This document shows positions 45,450 through 59,730 of a DNA stretch of 64,000 nt, one piece after another. Origin of the DNA: Albibacillus kandeliae. Lineage in GTDB: Bacteria; Pseudomonadota; Alphaproteobacteria; Rhodobacterales; Rhodobacteraceae. The first letter of the stretch is position 1. Each line of letters opens with the position of its first letter. The position numbers were made by a program, and so were the translations under genes. The stretch spans positions 1,051,650 through 1,115,649 of the forward strand of contig NZ_QEHM01000001.1 of NCBI RefSeq assembly GCF_003116585.1, written 5' to 3'. Below the pieces are notes generated by a model, which saw nothing but the letters and a program-made list of their open reading frames with translations, was not told the DNA's origin and searched no databases.

Positions 45450-45758
45450 TCACTCCTGATCGGGACGCTGCCAGCGGACGTTCCGCCAGACCCGGCGCCG
45501 CACCAGATCGCCGGGTCTCGGCACCACCAGCTTCACGTCCATGAACTCGGCTGTCTGGCAGCGCGAGCAGGCAAAAGGCGCAATGTGCGCGGGTCGCATC
45601 GGGTCGCAGACCTCGATCAGGTCCACCGCCAGGAACACCGACTTGCGCCTGCAGAGGTTGCAGCGCACGGCAATGGCCTGCCCCTCGCGCGCGGCGTCGC
45701 GCAGCGTGTGGAACGGCTTGCCCGGGTGTGCTCGAACTGGCGGAATTCCGACTGGCAT
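45450..45758 (-). CDS. SOS-controlled zinc-ribbon-like hypothetical protein
   Basis: 102-residue basic, Arg-rich protein with two CxxC pairs: CNLC near residue 33 and CSRC near residue 64, the spacing of a small zinc ribbon. It starts MPVGIPPVRAHPG and has no signal or membrane helix; charge and metal site suggest nucleic-acid or protein contact. ATG at 45758 has AAGG upstream. A LexA operator, GTTC-N7-GTTC, lies 20 bp before the start codon, so it should be induced by DNA damage. I know no named function for it. Confidence 0.75.
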   Translation of the reverse strand: MPVGIPPVRAHPGKPFHTLRDAAREGQAIAVRCNLCRRKSVFLAVDLIEVCDPMRPAHIAPFACSRCQTAEFMDVKLVVPRPGDLVRRRVWRNVRWQRPDQE

Positions 45759-45777
45759 GATGCCTTAAGTAACGCGA

Positions 45778-45792
45778 GAACAAATACAGAAC
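45778..45792 (-). promoter_or_regulatory. LexA (SOS) box
   Basis: On the minus strand GTTCTGTATTTGTTC, an exact GTTC-N7-GTTC direct repeat, the operator recognised by alphaproteobacterial LexA (described in Rhodobacter and Rhizobium). It is 20 bp upstream of the zinc-ribbon gene start, where it would cover the promoter. Confidence 0.75.
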
Positions 45793-46052
45793 AATAGGTC
45801 CCGCCGCGGGCGTTCGGGTGGCGGACGCAGGGCAGGTACCTAGTGAAGAGACGCCTTATCACAACCCAAAAGAGAAAAAACAGGCAGCCAAATCCCCGCA
45901 GGGAGAACGGCTCCCTCGCCCCGTCGGCAGAAATGAGCCAAGCGCGGCGACAGCGAAGCCACGGGAACTATTTCTCTTTTTCAATGAGTTGATTTCGTGC
46001 AGGGTGGCGCTAGCTCACAGCCCCAAGTCAAACAGGATGGCAAAAACTGAAC

Positions 46053-59049: not shown

Positions 59050-59421
59050 TCAGTTCTTCCTGAGCAGAGCCTTTTCGATGAGAGACGGAAGCTCCATAAA
59101 GTCCACTGGCTTCGGGATGACCTTCAGGGCCCCAAGCTTCAGGAGGCAATTCTTCATGCCGTCATCATCCAGCGCAGTCAGAAAGATCGAGGGCGTGGTC
59201 TCGAAGCCAGCCTTGCGCCGTATCTTGAGGAGCGCCTCCGCGCCCGTCATCCCGGGCATGTTGTAGTCCAGCAGCAGCAGGTCCGGGTCGTATACCTCGA
59301 CAGCCGCAATCGCGCTGGGGCCGTCACTGCACTGCAGCAGTTCGAACCCTCCGATCTCCACGAGCGACAGGTTTACCAGTTCCCGGATGAATTCATCATC
59401 TTCAGCATGAAGTATGCGCAT
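59050..59421 (-). CDS. Single-domain response regulator
   Basis: 123-residue CheY-like receiver without output domain. Key residues are D8/D9 (HAEDDEF), phospho-site D52 (LLLLDYNMPGMTG), T82 (FLTAL) and K104 (IPKPVDF). It would be phosphorylated by a kinase encoded elsewhere. ATG at 59421 begins exactly at the beta-1 strand; a longer frame upstream is not part of the fold. It stands alone with no kinase nearby. Confidence 0.9.
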   Translation of the reverse strand: MRILHAEDDEFIRELVNLSLVEIGGFELLQCSDGPSAIAAVEVYDPDLLLLDYNMPGMTGAEALLKIRRKAGFETTPSIFLTALDDDGMKNCLLKLGALKVIPKPVDFMELPSLIEKALLRKN

Positions 59422-59730
59422 CGGCCAAGTTCCGTCTCTTGCTTCCTTACATCCTCCCCACATCACGGCGAACACGTACCGAACCGATTGGTTCCCCTTG
59501 GGTGCAGCCCCCGGTTTCCAACTGATGCAGCGGAGCCACACAGAGGCGCAGACCTCCGCCAGAAGACCGCAAGCGCGCCCCTGCACCCCTCAAACGCCGC
59601 GCGCCGCAGCGTTCTTCTTGACCGGATCAAAGAACTGGCAATTGCTGCTTTTTACATCTATCTTTGCAGATCGCCCGCCAGAACATGAACAGCCAAGGGC
59701 GGCTAAGAGCAGCTTGGAACTCGCAGGACC
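59422..59730. other. 309-bp divergent intergenic region
   Basis: Between the response regulator (-) and the membrane protein (+). No gene seen. The stretch 59636-59672 is AT-rich and may hold the promoter of the membrane-protein gene (TTGCTGCTTTTTACATC is included), but spacing to a -10 is unclear. Confidence 0.3.

Follow-up and report, generated by a model that had tools for sequence, protein, structure and literature searches.

The LexA repressor of Alphaproteobacteria recognizes the direct repeat GTTC-N7-GTTC (PMC3323433, PMC12700426), and this operator or its regulon is treated in four reports (PMC12700426, PMC3323433, PMC6473078, PMC1839093), while a fifth concerns another uncharacterised SOS gene of Caulobacter (PMC13384398). 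In excerpts of these five papers no mention of the gene described here was noticed. The SRAP proteins (HMCES/YedK, PF02586), whose family name links them to the SOS response, are enzymes whose Cys2 becomes covalently crosslinked to abasic sites of single-stranded DNA (PMC9436759). An excerpt of that paper treats the resolution of SRAP-DNA crosslinks in mammalian cells as an open question and names no bacterial partner protein of SRAP. A near precedent for our gene comes from neighbourhoods containing SRAP (DUF159) and Ku, in which Aravind et al. (2013, PMC3765255) also describe two uncharacterised domains that are Zn-chelating and Zn-ribbon-like.

No paper in the literature searched brought LexA, SOS, zinc ribbon and Alphaproteobacteria together, and an entry in the main regulon comparison for this class, that of Erill et al. 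(2004), is possible. The combination of “SOS response-associated peptidase” with zinc ribbon yielded no paper, and that of DUF159 with Zn-ribbon yielded PMC3765255 only. The original prediction knew of no SOS gene of this type that has a name, and this holds in the libraries and literature searched, with the domains described in the excerpt of PMC3765255 as the nearest approach.

The stretch of DNA analysed here (the window, 64 kb) carries such a gene on its minus strand, with the following features.

45789 to 45794, minus strand: predicted -35 element TTGTTC, which shares bases with the first half-site of the operator (inferred from comparison with four Phaeobacter copies)
45778 to 45792, minus strand: LexA-type operator GTTCTGTATTTGTTC, an exact direct repeat GTTC-N7-GTTC (motif; kept in relatives)
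45766 to 45771, minus strand: predicted -10 element TACTTA, separated by 17 bp from the -35 element and by 7 nt from the ATG (inferred from the same comparison)
45450 to 45758, minus strand: coding sequence of a basic zinc-ribbon protein of 102 aa, with its ATG at 45758 (open reading frame, relatives and alignment; no Pfam match over cut-off and no NCBIfam match)
45651 to 45662, minus strand: first zinc knuckle CNLC (Cys33, Cys36), zinc predicted (motif and alignment)
45558 to 45569, minus strand: second zinc knuckle CSRC (Cys64, Cys67), zinc predicted (motif and alignment)

An exact repeat just before the gene had been claimed for this locus, and the sequence agrees, with 19 nt between the end of the box and the ATG. 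Read against the Phaeobacter copies, the gene would have a promoter consisting of TTGTTC, 17 bp, TACTTA, 7 nt and the ATG, and a near-leaderless mRNA is predicted; a consensus scan found no sigma-70 site at this promoter.

The description of the product as an Arg-rich protein of 102 residues with CNLC and CSRC pairs was likewise borne out by the analysis of the reading frame: it contains 15 Arg, has a net charge of +8 and a pI of 10.28, and has cysteines at positions 33, 36, 51, 64 and 67. Besides one copy that is 99% identical, six more relatives match at 47-62% identity over 68-96%, and to judge from these the frame is a real gene. Among the relatives, P0002 and P0003 match best, being 61% and 56% identical over 94% and 96%. 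The usual C-terminal end of the family (LTVRRPV...WxWR) is absent from the window protein, where this region is diverged and shortened. The frame is open, all four motif cysteines and the Arg pair are kept, and the box is intact.

No curated zinc-ribbon family exceeded its cut-off for the window protein. PF13717 scored 10.6 bits against a cut-off of 30.3, so the protein is placed under no named zinc-ribbon family. An AlphaFold model has a mean pLDDT of 81, with residues 21-80 averaging above 90. In our judgment a zinc-ribbon fold is very probable. Since neither a significant fold match nor a PDB sequence match was found for this protein, the nucleic-acid binding that we predict for it is read from charge and motif only.

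The bare operator motif carries little information by itself. Two copies of GTTCN7GTTC fall in the window, where 1.82 would be expected, and the genome of 5.48 Mb has 151, compared with 63 matches for a reversed control pattern. With the count in the window at chance level, and at these genome-wide numbers, a single box is no proof, and its conservation in relatives becomes the decisive evidence. The second bare box in the window, GTTCGGTACGTGTTC at 59470-59484 on the minus strand, lies some 48 bp ahead of the likely ATG (near 59421) of a gene for a CheY-like single-domain response regulator. It has a GC-rich spacer, does not fit the stricter pattern introduced below, and may be a chance match.

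A stricter pattern, GTTCNNNNWNTGTTC, chosen after the window box had been seen, has 11 sites in the genome against one control match. A box scoring trained on known boxes and applied to the 34 sites of a single contig placed the window box seventh. The genome encodes LexA and RecA, and both genes are boxed (GTTCTACGCATGTTC before lexA and GTTCGCCTCTTGTTC before recA), with boxes that lie outside the stricter pattern. Genes beside GTTCNNNNWNTGTTC sites include uvrA, a Y-family polymerase-like gene that we read as imuB, pdeM, mmcB, the window gene, and genes for a PA0069-type radical SAM protein, an MT-A70 protein and a SocA-type antitoxin; in the last two cases (L068 and L030) the boxes precede an MT-A70 methyltransferase-like gene and the antitoxin gene. 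The locus resembles the described alphaproteobacterial regulon in having an exact operator over a predicted promoter, in a genome where lexA, recA, uvrA and others are boxed. It differs in that a zinc-ribbon gene of this family goes unmentioned in the excerpts of PMC3323433 and PMC12700426.

At E 0.001, two profile searches returned 126 and 145 relatives. In all, 177 different proteins were compared, and none of the best 120 from each search has a precomputed Pfam domain. The four-Cys motif is present in 172 of the 177, and net charge is positive in every one of the 157 relatives of up to 130 aa. Cys33, Cys36, Asp46, Cys64, Cys67, Arg87, Arg88 and Trp91 are among the invariant or nearly invariant positions in an alignment of 76 sequences. 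Family members reside on a Paracoccus phage, on viral contigs and on plasmids, and several copies correspond to no annotated gene in their records (the gene table for the plasmids is incomplete). A scan of genome contigs with the single protein gave no match. The same query against 195 relatives found its own gene and two weak matches (L032 and L033), which were judged spurious: they are partial, with E 4e-4, and L033 lies by eye inside an ABC-transporter-like frame.

Four of 12 members weakly match PHROG 6417, described as a translational regulator, with a best E of 0.015. This group is one that we take to be Com of phage Mu. Zinc-finger regulators of the Com type resemble our family in being small, in having two CxxC pairs and in their association with mobile elements; on the other side stands the weakness of the PHROG match.

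For the comparison of upstream regions, relatives were gathered by protein similarity alone, with the box ignored. They came from plasmids (43 records at E 0.01), one phage, viral contigs (7 loci), species genomes (10 loci) and 394 genomes of a set at family level, in which the gene is present in eight, the window's own genome and a truncated remnant included. Thirty of the 43 plasmid records belong to one species; five records were opened for the cluster set, and eight plasmid loci, two of them near-identical (L137 and L138), were added later. Clustering of 29 loci at 85% identity gave 20 non-redundant clusters, from which the truncated remnant (L064), which has no box, was left out. L040 duplicates the plasmid of L034, and L031, L063 and L065 correspond to the window itself. 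Start codons in the box count were set by us, and those of L047 and L048 are not real. Null expectations, here and for the sister loci below, are from first-order Markov simulations.

Whether the LexA box is conserved before orthologues was the check proposed with the original prediction. An exact box lies within 150 bp upstream in 17 of the 20 non-redundant clusters, against a null of 0.0044 per locus. By batch, exact boxes were found at all six of the first loci, at 14 of 17, and at five of six further strong matches, the sixth having one mismatch. The clusters that lack an exact box are L045, L047 and L060, the last differing by one mismatch. At the eight plasmid loci added later, the box is at the start codon in three, 242-350 bp before the match in three, and absent from two.

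In the 17 boxed clusters the distance from the box to the start codon, as set by us, is 4-25 bp, and in eight of them the box ends 4-6 nt before the ATG, which makes near-leaderless transcripts likely. At the protein level, 13 of the 177 relatives begin with Met-Phe, as expected if a start is called inside a box ending ATGTTC. When the 17 clusters are anchored on the box, the half-sites necessarily score 2 bits, the T that precedes each of them reaches 1.3-1.5 bits, and most other flanking columns carry little information. The four Phaeobacter copies share invariant half-sites and a TTT spanning the point where the second half-site begins, and vary at four spacer positions and over most of the upstream flank. 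That LexA controls the family is very probable in our judgment, and as well supported as sequence alone allows.

A gene for an SRAP protein of the HMCES/YedK type, with a start resembling M/V-C-N-L-Y, lies within about 300 bp in 15 of the 20 clusters. In eight it follows directly downstream, at 5 bp or less (L035, L037, L053, L057, L058, L059, L060 and L062); elsewhere it is upstream on the same strand (L043, L048 and L049), convergent (L044, L047 and L052) or divergent across a shared box (L061). No SRAP-like gene was found within the available flanks of L034, L036, L045 and L051. All seven neighbours that were scanned match Pfam SRAP (PF02586), the neighbour in L061 matches an SRAP query at E 5e-87, and that in L037 is annotated as SRAP in its record; the remaining six of the 15 are assigned by their N-terminal motif only. 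Among the eight plasmid loci added later, SRAP lies within about 320 bp downstream in five (L139-L143; L141 by record annotation). These neighbours, at roughly 200-230 aa, are Cys2 crosslinking enzymes by family (excerpt of PMC9436759), unlike the zinc ribbon, which has no Cys2 start.

On plasmid pR132502 of Rhizobium leguminosarum (L136, 2188-2824), the family gene overlaps an ORF of 106 aa, the box stands before that ORF, and ligD is nearby. The Zn-ribbon-like domains of PMC3765255 are similar to our family in standing next to SRAP, and the ligD beside this rhizobial member adds to the likeness. They differ in that a LexA box and lone copies go unmentioned in the excerpt of that paper, with which our family was compared by description only.

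The window copy has no SRAP neighbour, there being no SRAP-like start anywhere in the 64 kb, and the window gene is therefore a member of the protein family and not of the zinc-ribbon-SRAP gene pair. Its genome yielded no SRAP of the MCNLY type at E 1e-30; it has two SRAP genes on other contigs, with no box in the 300 bp before either. At L110 (C25:388180-388764 of the same genome), the SRAP-family product starts MPGRVF and has no catalytic Cys2. The converse association is weak, as two of 25 SRAP matches of the MCNLY type in the 394 genomes adjoin a family gene, so SRAP genes of this type are usually not beside the zinc ribbon. At L113 and L133, a LexA-type box is followed by a different small ORF and then by SRAP; the first gene of such boxed SRAP operons seems exchangeable.

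A search at the level of the class gave five weak matches of a CWCNRCGHNA type, and all five are boxed. This sister family, found across many families of Alphaproteobacteria, is present in 56 of 385 class genomes at E 0.001, the weakest of which may be other zinc ribbons, and was absent from the window's genome in its own search at E 0.001. At 20 of the 30 best-matching loci a box lies within 220 bp, in one orientation or the other, where 0.14 would be expected; the reversed control occurs at none. By hhalign, the window family and the sister family match with a probability of 96.6% and E 5.8e-10 over 60 columns, a profile comparison that joins them as distant relatives. A convincing SRAP neighbour was found at none of 29 sister loci checked; at L099 a protein of 127 aa matches the search motif and is not SRAP-like in look. 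By eye, the sister loci lie amid ordinary-looking chromosomal genes, and several (among L079-L108) are near a gene whose product starts MADIFxEIDEELKxDRxxxLWxRYGKYV. The SOS assignment of the window gene now stands on firmer ground than when first proposed, with SRAP near most clusters, though not near the window copy, and with the sister family boxed at two-thirds of loci.

We favour, with moderate confidence, the reading that these genes form a LexA-controlled, accessory and often mobile zinc-ribbon family whose products would bind nucleic acid and work with SRAP on abasic sites. The role of the product is read from its company, namely an SOS operator in most members and SRAP near most. LexA would repress the gene and DNA damage would switch it on. 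Since the predicted -35 element and the spacer lie under the operator, bound LexA would block RNA polymerase directly until RecA-driven cleavage of LexA allowed the near-leaderless mRNA to be made. In relatives with SRAP directly downstream, the SRAP gene would be on the same mRNA. The zinc-ribbon protein may bind nucleic acid and act with SRAP at abasic sites in single-stranded DNA. Any SRAP partner in the window's genome would act in trans, both SRAP genes found there being unboxed and on other contigs. A DNA-damage role is probable, and a partnership with SRAP in the family stands at about even chances. For the window copy, which stands alone with an altered C-terminus, such a partnership is doubtful.

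A different function for the same LexA-controlled product has to be considered. It could be a Mu Com-like regulator of mobile-element genes that binds mRNA or a promoter upon damage, with SRAP as a passenger of the same elements. The phage, viral and plasmid members and the PHROG 6417 matches suit this proposal, and zinc fingers of such size can in general bind RNA. However, those matches are weak and may reflect just a common CxxC spacing, the window copy and the sister loci lie amid ordinary-looking chromosomal genes, with the sister family spread over many families, and the direct coupling to SRAP in eight clusters points to DNA repair; we regard such a regulator as unlikely. That the product is induced in the SOS response to inhibit growth or cell division, resembling SidA or SulA by its effect and not in sequence, is highly improbable: small SOS-induced proteins are sometimes such inhibitors, and relatives reside on plasmids and phages, but a strongly basic protein with a conserved four-Cys motif and an SRAP neighbourhood is not what this proposal leads one to expect.

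Two further alternatives bear on the window locus itself. Its copy could be a decaying orphan in which operator and frame persist with little activity, given that it has neither SRAP beside it nor the canonical C-terminus, that the gene is rare in the family set and that a truncated remnant is known elsewhere. Against this, the preserved frame, cysteines, Arg pair and box, together with the identity to P0002 and P0003 over nearly the whole length, make decay rather improbable. A box that matches by chance, with the gene outside LexA control, would agree with the frequency of the bare motif in the window, but is hardly credible in view of boxes at the same place in most clusters and of the conservation footprint in the Phaeobacter copies.

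The preferred reading of a LexA-controlled family that works with SRAP has a bolder and more tentative extension. The two families may form one unnamed superfamily of zinc ribbons under LexA control that extends across the Alphaproteobacteria, with a chromosomal branch (CWCNRC) and a mobile branch on phages, plasmids and islands that travels with SRAP. The mobile zinc ribbon could then be a dedicated accessory factor, bringing SRAP to abasic sites of single-stranded DNA or removing it from them, and the pair a portable SOS cassette for abasic-site tolerance. The zinc-ribbon gene, small and repeatedly found immediately ahead of SRAP, with one LexA box for both, is a direct candidate for an SRAP partner. 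Because several copies are unannotated, DNA-damage studies of Rhodobacterales and rhizobia could overlook it. If our reading is true, the SOS regulon of an entire bacterial class would gain a new gene family.
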